Positions 7,759-33,004 of a stretch of 33,801 bases of DNA are shown piece by piece. The DNA comes from an uncultured Chthoniobacterales bacterium (GTDB lineage Bacteria; Verrucomicrobiota; Verrucomicrobiia; Chthoniobacterales; CALDSX01): the NCBI GenBank assembly GCA_937924445.1, contig CALDSX010000001.1:1-33801 (forward strand). Direction: 5' to 3'. Under the pieces are notes generated by a model, which worked only from the letters and a program-made list of their open reading frames with translations, ran no database searches and was not told where the DNA came from. Position 1 is the stretch's first letter, and every line of letters begins with the position of its first letter. The position numbers and the translations under genes were made by a program.

Positions 7759-8223
7759 TCACTTACTGTCGCCCGGGCTCTGCTTTTTCTCTTCCGACCC
7801 TGCTATTTCGGAGTTTGAGGAATTGGTGTTTACTGATTTCGAAGCTTTGATGTCTAGCACGAAAACAACCGTTAGTCCTATCGTCATAAGGACGGCGGGT
7901 ATAGCGGTAGTAGTAAAAGGCCCGATAAATCTCTGCCATAAAGTAAGATTTCGACCTAGAAAAAAAGATGCAATACTTGCGATCCCAAATGAGCCAAACA
8001 TCGCAAGTAACGGGAACAGACCGGTCATAACAAACCCTTGTTTCAAAGAATCAGGTGCTAATTCAGCAAAAACTAAAACTACAGCAAATGGCAAAAGCCA
8101 GGGTAATGCTGCCGCCAGAGGGGTGATCCAGAAATGAAACGGAGCTATTCCACAAACCCATGCCAGTATGGTGGCAATTAGGGGAATGCTCAATAACGCT
8201 AATATAGAAGAAATGGAGCTCAT
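7759..8223 (-). CDS. Small integral membrane protein, unknown function
   Basis: The gene encodes 154 residues with about four hydrophobic segments: IPLIATILAWVCGI, LPWLLPFAVVLVFAEL, LFPLLAMFGSFGIASIASFF and AIPAVLMTIGLTVVFVL. These are followed by a hydrophilic, Ser/Asn/Lys-rich tail of about 30 residues. The ATG at 8223 is preceded by AGGACCT at a good distance, one of the clearer ribosome-binding sites in this window. I do not recognise a family. It converges with the TIR-FGE gene (52 bases between the ends) and may be unrelated to it. Confidence 0.6.
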   Translation of the reverse strand: MSSISSILALLSIPLIATILAWVCGIAPFHFWITPLAAALPWLLPFAVVLVFAELAPDSLKQGFVMTGLFPLLAMFGSFGIASIASFFLGRNLTLWQRFIGPFTTTAIPAVLMTIGLTVVFVLDIKASKSVNTNSSNSEIAGSEEKKQSPGDSK

Positions 8224-12233: not shown

Positions 12234-12377
12234 CAAAACTAGATACATCCTTCTCGGGGCGGAGTCCAGGGAAGGATGTATTTCAAACGCAACAGTCGAA
12301 AAAACCGACTTGCGAATTTGATTTATGTCAGTCAACTCAGGTAGAAACGTCAATGAGCAAAAGTTTTTTCAGAAAGT

Positions 12378-26603: not shown

Positions 26604-29600
26604 TCAGGGCTCTGCTTTGTATGCTTCAGATGGGCTGCGCTCACTGACGTTGCGCAGCGCTTCGAAGCGCCGCAAGACCAGTTCTTGCGCGGTGGCGGCC
26701 AGCTCAGTGTAGATCGCTGGTTGCAGTCCGGCAAGCATCCTGAATCGCGTTTCGTTTTCGGTAAATCGCCCGATCGGCAGAGAGGGTTTTGAGCTGTCGA
26801 GTTTGAGAGGTTCTTCACCAACTCGACGTCGGCGCGGGTCGAAGCGATAGAGTGGCCAGAACCCCGTGTTGACAGCCAGTTTCTGCTGCTCCATCCCAAT
26901 CGAGAGAGAATACCCATGTGCAATGCAGTGGCTGTAGGCGATTATGATCGAAGGGCCACGGTAGCTCTCCGCCTCATGGAAAGCGCTGATGGTCTGGCCG
27001 TCTTTAGCCCCCATCGCCACGGATGCCACGTAGATATGACCATAGCTCATGAGCATGAGACCGAGATCTTTGCGCGGGAGATTTTTTCCGCTTGCAGCAA
27101 ATTTCGCCACAGCACTGAGCGGTGTGGATTTCGATGCCTGCCCACCAGTGTTGGAGTACACTTGGGTGTCCAATACGAGTACATTGATGTCGTGGGCACC
27201 GGAGAGGACATGGTCAAGCCCTCCGAAGCCGATATCGTAGGCCCAACCGTCGCCACCGACGATCCAAACTGACTTTTTAACAAGAAAATCAGACAGATCG
27301 AACAACTTCCGCAAGCCCGGATCTGACGGGCCAGAGCGAAGAGAAGAGCCATTACTCAGAAGCGCTTTGAGTGCGGCGACGCGTTCACGCTGGCTCTGAA
27401 TTCCGGTTTCGGTCGATTGATCCGCGTCGAGCAGACTCGAGATTAGATCATCCCCAATTCGCCCGGCTGCGCCGCGCAACAGGCGGCGCGCTTCGAAAGT
27501 GTGGTGGTCAACAGCAAGGCGAATGCCGAGCCCGAATTCTGCGTTGTCTTCAAACAGTGAGTTTGCCCAGGCTGGCCCACGCCCCGAAGCGTCTGTGGTG
27601 TAGGGGGTTGTGGGCAAATTCCCACCATAAATCGAGGAGCAGCCTGTGGCATTGGCGATGATGAGACGGTCACCATAAAGTTGTGTGAGCAGCTTCAAAT
27701 AAGGAGTCTCCCCACAACCCGCACAGGCACCCGAAAATTCAAAAAGCGGTTGCAGAAACTGAGAGCTTTTGACTTCCATACGTGCGGCTGCTCGTTCCGA
27801 CTCGGGAATTGAGAGGAAGAAATCCCAGTTTGCGCGCTCCGTTTCACGCAAGGGAAGCTGTTCCTGCATGTTTATTGCCTTTCGACGCGGGTTCGTTTTG
27901 TCTTTTGCAGGACAGACTTGAACGCAAAGTGAGCAGCCGGTGCAATCCTCCACGGCAACTTGAAGAGAGTAGCGTTTGCCGGGGAAGTCCTGCGATCGGA
28001 ATACAGTGCTCTTAAAGGTGGATGGGGCAGCTTCAAGCAACTGGGGATCATAGAATTTCGCACGAATTGTTGCATGCGGACAGACGAATACACATTTGTT
28101 GCATTGAATGCAGATGTCGGGCTCCCAGACTGGAACCTGCTGCGCAATATTGCGCTTTTCCCACCGTGCAGTGCCGGACGGCCAGACCCCGTCCGGCGGA
28201 AAAGCACTGACGGGCAAGCGGTCGCCGTGACCCGCGAGAAGAGTTGCTGTAACCCGTTGGACAAATTCCGGCACCGCCGGGGGGACCGGCGCATCCAGAG
28301 GAAACTCTGGCACGTGCGGATCCAACGGCGGAAAGGTGAAAAGTTTTTCCAAGGTCTGATCAACCGCACGACAATTTTTAGCGACTACCTCTTCGCCTTT
28401 TTTAAGATAAGTTTTACGGATGGATTCCTTTATTTTTTGGATTGCCTCCTCGCGCGGCAAAACACCGGAGATCGCGAAATAGCACGTCTGCATAATGGTG
28501 TTAATGCGCCCCCCCATGCCCGCCTCTGTGGCCACGCGATAAGCATCAATTCCATAACAGCGAATTCCTTTCTCACGAATATGCCGACGCGCTTCGGTCG
28601 GCATTCGCTCCCAAACCCGCGAGGGGTCTGAAGTGGTGTTGAGCAGAAAAACAGCACCTGGCGCGGCGTTTTCAAGCATATCGATCTTGCGAAGAAACTG
28701 CTCTTGGTGGCAGGCGATAAAATTTGCCTTGCGGATCAGATAAGATGAGCGGATTGGCTGAGGGCCAAAACGGAGGTGGGAGATGGTCATCGAACCCGAT
28801 TTCTTCGAGTCATAGACAAAATATCCCTGGGCGTAATTCTCTGTCTCCTCGCCGATAATTTTAATAGTGTTTTTGTTTGCTCCAACTGTCCCATCGGCCC
28901 CGAGCCCGAAAAACATTGCCCGCGAGACTGAGCTCGGCTCGATATCAAAATCTTCATCCCATGCCAACGATGTGCCTGTGACATCATCGTTTATGCCGAT
29001 TGTGAACCCATTTTTTGGATGTTTGCTCGAAAGATTTTCAAACACAGCGCGGACCATCGCCGGCGTAAATTCTTTAGATGACAACCCGTAGCGGCCACCG
29101 ACCACCTTTGGCAAGAGAGGCTGACGCAGCAACCCCGTTTCCGCAGCTTCATGCAACGCCACAATCACATCGAGTTTGAGCGGTTCCCCGATTGCCCCAG
29201 GTTCTTTCGTGCGGTCAAGAACCGCGATGTGCCGAACAGTCGGAGGAAGAGATGCAGCAAAATCCGCCACGTGCCATGGCCGATAAAGGCGCGGTTTGAG
29301 CACCCCAATGCGATCCCCTTTTTGGAGTGCCCACGCCACATATTCATGAGTCACATCTGCTCCACTGCCCATGACAACGATCACCTGCTCGGCCTCGGGG
29401 TGTCCAAAATAATCAAACAACGAATACTTTCGCCCTGTCAACCCTGCGAAACGTTCCATCTCCTCACGAACAATACCGGGAAGCGCAAGATAAAAGGAAT
29501 TACAAGCCTCCCGAGCCTGGAAGAACGCATCGGGGTTTTGCGCTGTGCCCCGTATGCTCGGATGGTCGGGACTCATTGCGCGCGCTTTGTGCGCTGCTAG

Positions 29601-30203
29601 AGCTCCCTCGTCTATCATCGCACGAATCTGGTTTTCACTGGTCAGCTCAATCTTTGAAACTTCATGCGAAGTCCGAAATCCATCGAAAAAATGGAGGAAT
29701 GGCACACGCGAACGAAGGCTTGCGGCATGAGCGATGATCGCCATGTCTTGGGCCTCCTGAACTGAATTTGAGCAAAGCATGGCGAAACCAGTAGAGCGGC
29801 AGGCCATGACGTCAGAGTGATCACCAAAAATGGAGAGTGCATGGGTGGCAATGGTACGCGCGGTCACATGCATTGTGAATGGGAGGAGTTCACCCGCGAT
29901 TTTGAACATTGCCGGAATCATGAGCAGAAGTCCCTGCGAGGCGGTGAAAGTGGTCGAGAGCGCACCTGCCTGAAGCATACCATGGACAGCTCCAGCTGCG
30001 CCGCCTTCGCTCTGCATTTCAATTATGGTGGGGGTTGCCCCCCAAAGATTGGGCTTTTCCAGACTGCGCCACTCGTCACACGACTCCGCCATTGGAGAAC
30101 TCGGAGTGATCGGATAAATCGCAATTGTTTCAGAGAGAAGGTAGGCGACACGCGCGACAGCCTCATTAGCGTCAAGGGTTTTGGACTCCGGATGATGGCT
30201 CAT
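26604..30203 (-). CDS. nifJ: Pyruvate:ferredoxin (flavodoxin) oxidoreductase
   Basis: This is a one-chain enzyme of 1199 residues, the full family length. It oxidises pyruvate and CoA to acetyl-CoA and CO2, reducing ferredoxin. Domain order: POR N-terminal (about 10-250, with LSETIAIYPITPSSPMAE), domain II (260-400) and the EKR region with TEARRHIREK. Then come two ferredoxin clusters (CIQCNKCVFVCPH and CTGCSLCVQVCPAK, about residues 690-770) and a proximal cluster start (SGACAGCGETPYLKLL). The TPP domain has TGCSSIYGGNLP, GGDGWAYDIGFGGLDHV and DTQVYSNTGGQASKSTPLSA. The ATG at 30203 gives MSHHPESKTLDANEAVA. It is co-transcribed with the DHOD-like gene. The enzyme is oxygen-sensitive and indicates anaerobic carbon metabolism. 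Confidence 0.97.
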   Translation of the reverse strand: MSHHPESKTLDANEAVARVAYLLSETIAIYPITPSSPMAESCDEWRSLEKPNLWGATPTIIEMQSEGGAAGAVHGMLQAGALSTTFTASQGLLLMIPAMFKIAGELLPFTMHVTARTIATHALSIFGDHSDVMACRSTGFAMLCSNSVQEAQDMAIIAHAASLRSRVPFLHFFDGFRTSHEVSKIELTSENQIRAMIDEGALAAHKARAMSPDHPSIRGTAQNPDAFFQAREACNSFYLALPGIVREEMERFAGLTGRKYSLFDYFGHPEAEQVIVVMGSGADVTHEYVAWALQKGDRIGVLKPRLYRPWHVADFAASLPPTVRHIAVLDRTKEPGAIGEPLKLDVIVALHEAAETGLLRQPLLPKVVGGRYGLSSKEFTPAMVRAVFENLSSKHPKNGFTIGINDDVTGTSLAWDEDFDIEPSSVSRAMFFGLGADGTVGANKNTIKIIGEETENYAQGYFVYDSKKSGSMTISHLRFGPQPIRSSYLIRKANFIACHQEQFLRKIDMLENAAPGAVFLLNTTSDPSRVWERMPTEARRHIREKGIRCYGIDAYRVATEAGMGGRINTIMQTCYFAISGVLPREEAIQKIKESIRKTYLKKGEEVVAKNCRAVDQTLEKLFTFPPLDPHVPEFPLDAPVPPAVPEFVQRVTATLLAGHGDRLPVSAFPPDGVWPSGTARWEKRNIAQQVPVWEPDICIQCNKCVFVCPHATIRAKFYDPQLLEAAPSTFKSTVFRSQDFPGKRYSLQVAVEDCTGCSLCVQVCPAKDKTNPRRKAINMQEQLPLRETERANWDFFLSIPESERAAARMEVKSSQFLQPLFEFSGACAGCGETPYLKLLTQLYGDRLIIANATGCSSIYGGNLPTTPYTTDASGRGPAWANSLFEDNAEFGLGIRLAVDHHTFEARRLLRGAAGRIGDDLISSLLDADQSTETGIQSQRERVAALKALLSNGSSLRSGPSDPGLRKLFDLSDFLVKKSVWIVGGDGWAYDIGFGGLDHVLSGAHDINVLVLDTQVYSNTGGQASKSTPLSAVAKFAASGKNLPRKDLGLMLMSYGHIYVASVAMGAKDGQTISAFHEAESYRGPSIIIAYSHCIAHGYSLSIGMEQQKLAVNTGFWPLYRFDPRRRRVGEEPLKLDSSKPSLPIGRFTENETRFRMLAGLQPAIYTELAATAQELVLRRFEALRNVSERSPSEAYKAEP

Positions 30204-30256: not shown

Positions 30257-30306
30257 AATAAATCCGCTCGAATGCGGCATCGGCAAGGCCGAGTCGAAGA
30301 TTTATT
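30257..30306 (-). promoter_or_regulatory. Hairpin in the nifJ 5' region
   Basis: AATAAATC (30257-30264) and GATTTATT (30299-30306) form a perfect 8-bp outer stem, and CGGC/GCCG (30281-30284 with 288-291) an inner one. It lies about 55 bases before the nifJ start codon, on the side that would be its leader. A T-run like that of a terminator is absent. It could be an RNA structure or a DNA-binding site. Confidence 0.35.
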
Positions 30307-30421
30307 ATTGCTTTAATGATTCCAAAAACGAGTTGAATTTCAAGCAAAAACTATAAGTTAAACTAATGGTAATTGATTTACGGTATAAAATGGGATAAAA
30401 TAAAAAAAATTAAAAAATTTA

Positions 30422-30450
30422 TTGACGCACTCAGCGCTTTGTTGTATGAT
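30422..30450 (+). promoter_or_regulatory. Strong sigma70-type promoter of the structured RNA
   Basis: TTGACG (30422-30427) and TATGAT (30445-30450) are separated by exactly 17 bases, in an AT-rich upstream context. Predicted transcription starts near 30457 on the plus strand, opposite to nifJ and to the solute-binding protein gene. Confidence 0.7.
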
Positions 30451-30456
30451 TTGGCT

Positions 30457-30855
30457 GTAACGAAAATGGTTTTGTTGGTTCTCCACTTTCGTCACTTCAG
30501 GAGGCAGTTTCGCTCCTGCGAACATAGGTTGAAAGGTTTGTGGCTTCGTTGGCACAAACCAAGATTCCGCGCAACTGCCATCCCAGATGGCATCTGGGTG
30601 CGGGCAAGCCCGTATGGATGCCCGCACCATCCCCAAAAAGACTCTGCAGTCCAAGTCTTGCGGGGAACAGAAAAAACTGGGTTATTTTCCGGAGCCGCGC
30701 CAGTTGAGGCGGCCAAATCCGGACTGCACAACACATAGGATGAGCAGGCGCTCATCCGCGACACACGGAGCACAAAAAGCCTTGCGCTGTCACACGCGGT
30801 GCAGGGCGCATTAGGCGCGGGGGTTTTTCCCGGACCCCCGCGCCAACTTATTTTT
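30457..30855 (+). ncRNA. Candidate structured non-coding RNA of about 400 nt
   Basis: No plausible ORF of good composition fits, but successive stems do. They are: ACGAAA 30460/TTTCGT 30487; CAGGAG 30498/CTCCTG 30513; GGTTTGTG 30535/CACAAACC 30553 (8 bp); CCCAGAT 30582/ATCTGGG 30592; GGTGCGGGCA 30597/TGCCCGCACC 30619 (10 bp). Further on: CCCC and AAGACT 30631-30643 with AGTCTT and GGGG to 30665; TCCGGA and GCCGC 30688-30698 with GCGGC and TCCGGA to 30723; GGATGAGC 30738/GCTCATCC 30750 (8 bp). A terminator follows. A promoter stands in front. I checked by eye for RNase P, tmRNA, SRP and 6S signatures and did not see them. Identity is open. Confidence 0.6.
30814..30855 (+). terminator. Intrinsic terminator of the structured RNA
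   Basis: GGCGCGGGGG (30814-30823) pairs perfectly with CCCCCGCGCC (30835-30844) around an 11-base loop. The tail AACTTATTTTT follows on the plus strand. No T-rich tail exists on the minus side, so the direction is plus. Confidence 0.65.
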
Positions 30856-31026
30856 CACGAAATTTTATTATTCTAGCTTAACCCCGCTGACTCCTTCTTT
30901 GTCGACAACCAGTTCTTTTTCCCTCCAATTTTAGGGCATTTGCAGGCCCTTTCTTCTATTCGCTTGGCTGGCTCTGCTCCAAGGCCGGGAGACTGTGCTG
31001 AGGCAACGGTTGCGCTGAAGGGAAGG

Positions 31027-32898
31027 CTACTCGGAATAGACCACTTTCCCGGGCGCGGCAGGTAGGCTTAAGTCTGCGGCTCGAGCGGTTTCGAGCGCAG
31101 CGGCCTTTTCGCGGTCAAACCACCAATAAACAATTGCCGAAGTTTCCCGACCAAACCGATCGAGAACGGTTTTTGGCATGCCGAAACGATTCCAATAAAG
31201 AAGCCGGGAACGATCTGACTGCCATAGAAGAACATATGGCATCTCTCGTGTGACGATGTTGTCAATCTGACGAATGATTTCATTTCGTTTCACCAGGTCG
31301 AGTTCAGTTTTTTGTTGCTGGATCAGGGCATCCACTTCCTTGTTTCGGAACCCGGGAATGTTAAAAGTCGCCGGTTCATCAGCGGTCTTTGAGGACCAGA
31401 GAGACTCCGGATCGCGCAAGCGTCCGGCTCCCCATGCCACCCAAGCCATATCGAACTTATGCTCGTCAAGCCGTTTGGAATAGGTTGATTGAGAGACCGT
31501 TTCCACTGCCGCGTCAATGCCGACCCTCTGCAAATCCTGCATGTAGATATTCAGATGAGGGAGCGGGTCCCCACTGTAAAGAAATGACAATTTGAAGGGT
31601 TGGCCATCTTTCTCCAAGCGACCCGAAGAATTGACCGTCCACCCGGCTTCGGCAAGCAACGCCCGCGCTCTCTCGGGGTCATAGCTCAGCATTGGTGCGT
31701 TTGGATTAATGTTCCCCTCGAAAAGATCGGGGTAGTATGAGTTAAGGAGGAAATACTGGCGATACATCAGTTTGTCAAGCATCTGCTCGCGATTTAGAAG
31801 TCGGGCTAAAGCCTCCCGCACGCGCAGATCTTGAAACAAAGGCCGACGAAGATTCATTGCAAATCCCTGAAAGGCCTTTGGTTCATCGTTGAAAACCTCT
31901 TGGCGTATCACCCAACCTTTTTCAACAGCGGGGAAACGTGTCTGTTCCGCCCAAATAGCCGCTGTGTAGATGGCATACATATCAAAGTCGCCTTTTTTAA
32001 GAGCCTCGAGCGATTTGTGGCGGTCTTCCATGAACCGAAAGCGAAGGTAATCAAAATTGTATTTGCCGACATTCTGGCGAAGCACGCGGCCCCACCAGTC
32101 GCCACGGCGTTTGAGAAGCACACTGCGCTCGTTGAGCACCTGTTTCAGTTCATAGGGCCCGCTTATTACAGGGAAATCAAAATTGAAGGAGGAGAATTCC
32201 TTGCCGCCCATCACATGCCGAGGAAAGGCGTTCAGGCCACCCGCATCCCAAAAAGCCGACCAGTGGCGTTCCTTGGCGCGAACGCGCAACGTTTTAGGGC
32301 CTAGCGCCTCGGGTCGCTCCAGTCGCGAAAGACTCACCCGAAACGATGATGTTGGGTTTTTTGGATCCATCATCGTATCGAAGTAAAAGACAAAATCTTC
32401 GGCTTCCACCGGTCGGCCATCACTCCAGGAGGCTTGAGGATAGATTTCGAATGTGAATTCCATTTGATCTTCAGAGATGCTCCAGTTCTTTGCCAGCACA
32501 CCTTGCGGGCGGTTTTCTACCGGATGCAATCCGAGGAGAGGCTCAAACATCAGCCCGCAGATCGTGCCAGTCAGAGAATTCGTATCGAGCCAATAGTTGA
32601 GTGAAGCTGGAAACCCTCCACCCCAGGTTGTAAAGGTGCCGCCACGTTGCGCTTTCGGATCGGCAATCGGATCCAACTCCCCAGTTTCTTCTACCACAAA
32701 CGGCGCATCTTCGACAGGAGGCAAGCGATCTGCAGGATTGCCTGCCGTGCTGTCTCGGCGTTTTGTGCATCCAACAGTCCCCAACAGAAACCCAAGAACC
32801 AAAGTGAAGACGAGTTTGACCGGCAAATCGTGCCACTGGTTGAAAGCGTGGTCGAATGGGAGTAACGTGACTGTTTGGGTTTTTGAGCCAAGATTCAT
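31027..32898 (-). CDS. Oligopeptide-type ABC transporter substrate-binding lipoprotein
   Basis: An SBP family 5 protein of about 623 residues. The lipoprotein signal peptide is VKLVFTLVLGFLLGTVGC, lipobox GTVGC, followed by a polar linker (TKRRDSTAGN). Family features are PQGVLAKNWSISEDQMEFTF, WSDGRPVEAEDFVFYFDTMM, LRVREALARLLNREQMLD and LLNSYYPDLFEGN. LAEAGWTVNSSGRLEKDGQP and MPYVLLWQSDRSRLLYWNRF also occur. It resembles YejA-type peptide binders. No permease or ATPase gene follows, so partners lie elsewhere. The ATG at 32898 gives a long N-region; an in-frame TTG at 32826 would start the signal peptide directly. Confidence 0.85.
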   Translation of the reverse strand: MNLGSKTQTVTLLPFDHAFNQWHDLPVKLVFTLVLGFLLGTVGCTKRRDSTAGNPADRLPPVEDAPFVVEETGELDPIADPKAQRGGTFTTWGGGFPASLNYWLDTNSLTGTICGLMFEPLLGLHPVENRPQGVLAKNWSISEDQMEFTFEIYPQASWSDGRPVEAEDFVFYFDTMMDPKNPTSSFRVSLSRLERPEALGPKTLRVRAKERHWSAFWDAGGLNAFPRHVMGGKEFSSFNFDFPVISGPYELKQVLNERSVLLKRRGDWWGRVLRQNVGKYNFDYLRFRFMEDRHKSLEALKKGDFDMYAIYTAAIWAEQTRFPAVEKGWVIRQEVFNDEPKAFQGFAMNLRRPLFQDLRVREALARLLNREQMLDKLMYRQYFLLNSYYPDLFEGNINPNAPMLSYDPERARALLAEAGWTVNSSGRLEKDGQPFKLSFLYSGDPLPHLNIYMQDLQRVGIDAAVETVSQSTYSKRLDEHKFDMAWVAWGAGRLRDPESLWSSKTADEPATFNIPGFRNKEVDALIQQQKTELDLVKRNEIIRQIDNIVTREMPYVLLWQSDRSRLLYWNRFGMPKTVLDRFGRETSAIVYWWFDREKAAALETARAADLSLPAAPGKVVYSE

Positions 32899-33004
32899 TT
32901 GGACAACATTAGACGAGTGGAGGCCTGCTGCAACAGGCAAAGCCAGGCGCAATCTTCCATACAATCGCGCAAGGTAGAGCGCTCAAAAATTCCGTAAATT
33001 ATTC

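Follow-up and report, generated by a model that had tools for sequence, protein, structure and literature searches.

The stretch of DNA analysed here, hereafter the window, comprises 33,801 nt from an uncultured Chthoniobacterales bacterium whose genome assembly (2.58 Mb) is 95% complete. Near the end of the window, an 823-bp gap separates two minus-strand genes and holds, on the plus strand, a candidate non-coding RNA. The upstream, divergent neighbor is a gene which we take to be nifJ, the name having been assigned by the initial annotation and by ourselves without a family search, and the downstream, convergent neighbor encodes a family-5 solute-binding protein. No plus-strand gene lies downstream of the candidate RNA before the convergent gene. 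The features of the locus are as follows.

26604-30203, minus strand: nifJ (presumably pyruvate:ferredoxin oxidoreductase), open reading frame, divergent neighbor outside the RNA
30400-30421, plus strand: A/T-rich tract resembling an UP element in its sequence, directly upstream of the -35 box
30422-30450, plus strand: sigma-70-type promoter, TTGACG-17-TATGAT, with 10/12 consensus matches
30457-30856, plus strand: predicted structured non-coding RNA (z -5.68), its putative start placed 6-7 nt past the -10 box
30814-30856, plus strand: intrinsic terminator, a stem followed by a T-rich tail (pair probability 0.96)
31027-32964, minus strand: family-5 solute-binding protein gene (Pfam SBP_bac_5, E 6e-65), convergent neighbor outside the RNA

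The first 220 bp of the gap are A/T rich, and the GC content, which reaches a trough of 0.24-0.25 around the promoter (30300-30449), switches at the promoter and climbs to 54-65% across the body of the RNA. What the initial annotation described is confirmed. Its consensus promoter with a 17-base spacer is present; promoter-like sites number 4 in 851 bp versus 0.8 in shuffled sequences. The terminator is present as well: a GC-rich hairpin closes the element, with a stem (GGCGCGGGGGTTT/GGACCCCCGCGCC, 30814-30844) of 13 pairs, 10 of which are G-C, but the tail (AACTTATTTTTC) is just moderately T rich, with no clean T run. Promoter and terminator are in register on the same strand.

Between these two signals, the sequence is far more structured than expected. 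The minimum free energy of the predicted RNA is -174.7 kcal/mol, compared to -137.5 +/- 6.6 kcal/mol in dinucleotide shuffles (z -5.68), and none of the 100 shuffles folded as low. In a plus-strand scan of the window with segments of 400 nt, where the z values are rough since 25 shuffles were used for each position, the two placements over the candidate RNA (z -7.6 and -7.4) were the most structured of all, the next best distinct place reaching z -4.2 and the scan as a whole having a mean of -0.25 and a standard deviation of 1.3. Furthermore, with 120-nt segments, the fold signal begins at the promoter and ends at the terminator, changing sharply at either end. The stems, predicted from a single sequence, resolve into nine high-probability hairpins followed by the terminator, so that the serial hairpins over about 400 nt that had been described from the letters, at least seven in number, turn out to be more numerous than claimed. 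The hairpin stems are 6 to 12 bp long, and most pair probabilities are 0.8-1.0. All of the following lie on the plus strand.

30457-30495, plus strand: hairpin 1, ACGAAA/TTTCGT plus TGG/CCA, loop TTTTGTTGGTTCT (mean pair probability 0.76-0.90)
30498-30518, plus strand: hairpin 2, CAGGAG/CTCCTG (pair probability 0.81)
30535-30560, plus strand: hairpin 3, GGTTTGTG/CACAAACC (pair probability 0.99)
30576-30592, plus strand: hairpin 4, TGCCATC/GATGGCA (pair probability 0.89)
30597-30628, plus strand: hairpin 5, GGTGCGGGCA/TGCCCGCACC (pair probability 0.99)
30630-30666, plus strand: hairpin 6, TCCCC/GGGGA plus AAGACT/AGTCTT (pair probability 0.95-0.98)
30688-30723, plus strand: hairpin 7, TCCGGA/TCCGGA plus GCCGC/GCGGC (pair probability 0.85-0.89)
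30738-30757, plus strand: hairpin 8, GGATGAGC/GCTCATCC (pair probability 1.00)
30779-30807, plus strand: hairpin 9, GCCTTGCGCTGT/GCGGTGCAGGGC, 12 bp (pair probability 0.99)

Alternative pairings occur at two places: GGCAGTTTCGC in hairpin 2 could pair with GCGCAACTGCC at 30569-30579, and hairpin 4 competes with CCCAGAT/ATCTGGG at 30582-30598. Adenine makes up 31% of the unpaired positions versus 15% of those in stems, an enrichment that is usual in folded RNAs. Pseudoknots between loops and linkers were also sought, and the candidates were no better than chance (P 0.11-0.16). Elsewhere in the window, positions 7801-7920 show the lowest fold z (-5.8) among the plus-strand 120-nt segments and lie over a short minus-strand frame without a Pfam match, and a perfect 11-bp inverted repeat, ATACATCCTTC/GAAGGATGTAT, with a fold z of -5.0, occurs at 12243-12282, near the start of an NAD(P)H-hydrate dehydratase gene.

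As the initial annotation had stated, no good open reading frame fits the element, the longest one spanning 93 aa versus 97 aa by chance. A frame of 91 aa (30466-30738, plus strand) deserves consideration, because its ATG begins about 9 nt from the putative transcript start, in a genome where Shine-Dalgarno sites are rare, and its codon score, at the 14th percentile of real gene segments, is within their range, if toward the lower end; it could thus be a short protein gene translated without a Shine-Dalgarno site. However, codon use does not separate it from spurious frames, 20% of which reach the same score, the length of the frame is at chance level, neither the Pfam search of the longer frame that contains it nor tblastn of the 91-aa frame against plasmids gave a match, and the structure runs about 118 nt beyond its stop codon, so that we give this reading very little credence. 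Judged from the sequence, an own promoter and an own terminator occur here together with no frame above chance, which are the marks of a free-standing non-coding RNA gene.

None of the known RNA families accounts for it. The search of all Rfam models that had been recommended returned no match at the gathering cutoff over the whole window, the models of OLE, ROOL, GOLLD, and HEARO included, and the best subthreshold match near the candidate RNA (E 0.22) is a stray one to the terminator hairpin, read on the opposite strand. Since the promoter is strong and the size is about 400 nt, a degenerate or divergent housekeeping RNA could be considered. However, the models of 6S RNA (RF00013, searched to an E of <=10), tmRNA (RF00023), and RNase P RNA (RF00010) do not match at the candidate RNA, ARAGORN found nothing in the whole window, and good copies of all three lie on other contigs of the genome, namely, 6S RNA at G000:C11:4786-4966 (50.7 bits), tmRNA at G000:C10:95223-95580 (157.3 bits), and RNase P RNA at G000:C16:17180-17600 (207.1 bits). 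It follows that the candidate RNA is none of these, in agreement with the initial annotation, which had seen the features of none of the three here, and this reading, whose probability is close to nil, can be regarded as refuted for practical purposes. An attC array and a replication origin were likewise rejected, as neither RYYYAAC/GTTRRRY nor a DnaA box occurs in 30457-30856.

The candidate RNA is present in a single copy in the genome. A dispersed repeat was rejected, the other matches in the genome being at most 26 nt long and due to chance. One match of 17 nt is to a dispersed, mobile-element-like repeat of about 140 bp, which does not reach into the RNA. The copies of this repeat, 94-96% identical, lie at or near several contig ends (L070:1-145, L071:1-145, L072:955-1093, and L073:749-861).

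The candidate RNA was searched for at the DNA level in 57 relatives, in 213 genomes of the order, and in 384 genomes of the class, with chance matches or none as the outcome, and no relative of it was found in phages or plasmids. Weak matches in six genomes of the order (E 0.003-0.009 per genome) were attributed to chance, as five of them fall within open frames or overlap them and the sixth lies in an A/T tract; a match of 16 residues to a viral contig, amounting to 21 nt of DNA, was rejected as well. Moreover, two covariance models, each built from this single sequence with the stems predicted for it (R1, 30457-30634, and R2, 30630-30812), recovered the window and, besides it, just two matches at chance level, the R1 matches having 17 bits and an E of 0.03-0.06 per genome among 213 genomes; the sensitivity of such single-sequence models is, in our judgment, little above that of BLAST. 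That none of these searches found a relative counts against the RNA, whose stems are predicted from one sequence. However, the other genomes listed for the order all come from families different from that of the source, and at order-level distance bacterial RNAs are usually no longer recognizable (PMC4214555), so that absence there is weak evidence against a function.

The neighborhood itself is not conserved. The nifJ gene has tblastn matches of 56-67% identity in the order relatives, and the closest solute-binding protein genes there are 55-58% identical, but no adjacency of the two genes was found in these relatives, and a conserved neighborhood was therefore rejected. The initial annotation had proposed aligning homologous regions upstream of nifJ; in the order relatives, these regions offered nothing comparable, and a gap marked by an A/T trough like the one here is absent from them. 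In all three relative loci that were read, frames that we recognized by eye from the sequence as transporter permeases follow the solute-binding protein homologues, whereas the gene at 31027-32964 stands apart from such frames and is followed instead by the RNA and nifJ. A search of contigs with the solute-binding protein gene found only two distant loci of the Rhodobacterales type. Since the relatives differ in the context of the solute-binding protein gene and carry no similar gap upstream of nifJ, the interval looks specific to the source lineage, and it may have arisen together with a rearrangement.

The displacement of the solute-binding protein gene from permease frames would make the interval a rearrangement site, which could hold unconstrained DNA. 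The candidate RNA would then be intergenic sequence with nonfunctional palindromes, or a cluster of terminators or DNA hairpins that insulates the convergent genes, and both the displaced neighbor and the lack of detectable conservation in the order, in the class, and with the covariance models speak for such a reading. Conversely, the structured part is bounded exactly by the promoter and the terminator, a z of -5.7 is sustained over 400 nt with sharp edges at either end, the change in GC content coincides with the promoter, and the element is not a dispersed repeat. On balance, we consider unconstrained DNA unlikely, although with an appreciable chance of being right.

We therefore favor a real, lineage-restricted non-coding RNA gene, which the sequence makes probable. 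Among highly expressed bacterial RNAs of unknown function (RUFs), conservation is mostly poor, and just 12% of such RNAs are common to clades outside the "Goldilocks" range (PMC4214555); since a narrow distribution is the norm for them, we count it in favor of this explanation. The candidate RNA shares with the RUFs of bacterial transcriptomes the intergenic position, the length of up to about 400 nt, the lack of an Rfam family, and the narrow distribution (PMC4214555), but, different from the RUFs, it is known from sequence alone, and it is far more structured than its own surroundings. The suggestion of the initial annotation that this may be a new or lineage-restricted RNA is thus supported in part: it fits the missing Rfam match, the absence of relatives in the order and class, the location of the housekeeping RNAs elsewhere, the excess structure, and the clean promoter and terminator, while its transcription and its function are what we infer from these.

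As for how such an RNA could work, three familiar mechanisms were considered. No match to Hfq (PF17209) was found in the genome at an E of <=1, the missing 5% of the assembly leaving a small doubt, and an Hfq-dependent antisense sRNA is disfavored. CsrA sponges of the CsrB/CsrC/RsmZ type also consist of serial hairpins, over a length similar to that of the candidate RNA. However, different from these, GGA motifs are at chance level (8 versus 5.6 +/- 2.4 expected, hence not enriched), with only two ANGGA occurrences, and a CsrA-sponge mechanism is disfavored too.

The third mechanism is that of staphylococcal RNAIII, an RNA that is 514 nt long and has 14 stem-loops, with UCCC in loops (PMC3861533), with which the candidate RNA shares the serial hairpins over several hundred nucleotides, the presumable independence from Hfq, no match to which was found in the genome, and the CU-rich loops (PMC3861533). 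A CU-rich motif occurs in 3 of 10 loops, taken with two flanking bases (P 0.04 by shuffling, uncorrected for motif choice); in particular, TTCTCC is found in the hairpin 1 loop and next to it, and the terminator loop contains TTCCC (30827-30831). Such loops could pair with the ribosome-binding sites of several mRNAs. However, GGAG, GAGG, or AGGA was absent ahead of all 15 predicted gene starts in the window, including those of nifJ and rpmB, several of these starts being uncertain, so that few targets for anti-Shine-Dalgarno pairing are to be expected, and translation in this lineage may be initiated through other signals. Furthermore, the candidate RNA is shorter (about 400 nt), has no Rfam model match, and has no evident Shine-Dalgarno targets. 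The CU-rich loops hint at an RNAIII-like anti-Shine-Dalgarno mechanism, which the few targets to be expected disfavor, and a regulatory RNA of this kind appears rather improbable.

For the lineage-restricted RNA gene that we prefer, it is possible to hypothesize the following. The RNA would be transcribed from its own strong promoter to its own terminator and would remain untranslated. As no gene follows on the plus strand, a leader role is not expected, and the combination of an own promoter and terminator with no same-strand gene downstream leads us to expect that it acts in trans. The nine local hairpins, set on A-rich single-stranded joints, may form a binding platform, and the RNA might serve a protein, or another RNA, as its scaffold or decoy, rather than as an Hfq-dependent antisense sRNA. 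This last role is proposed by elimination, since the three familiar sRNA mechanisms are disfavored, on thin evidence; it is a guess and the weakest step of the scheme. Taken as a whole, a free-standing, untranslated structured RNA gene of about 400 nt acting in trans, with the scaffold or decoy role as a guess, seems to us somewhat better than an even proposition.

OLE, ROOL, and GOLLD (PMC12286853) are, as predicted for the candidate RNA, long, heavily folded, and free-standing. Their families are conserved and show covariation, GOLLD often exceeding 800 nt and ROOL and GOLLD being found largely in phages and prophages (PMC12286853), whereas the candidate RNA has no Rfam match and no relatives, and its hairpins are mostly local. 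It is possible, but doubtful, that the candidate RNA is the first known representative of a new class of bacterial RNAs that are large, folded, free-standing, confined to one lineage, highly expressed, and Hfq free. If transcribed, it would add a large structured RNA to those covered by none of the 4227 Rfam families, in a lineage that has no detectable Hfq and whose RNA regulation is little known. The locus also illustrates a limit of comparative RNA discovery, in that the gene signals are clean, yet no relative is near enough to align.

At the opposite end of the window, positions 465-1499 encode a DruA-like protein (Pfam PF14236, E 4e-12).
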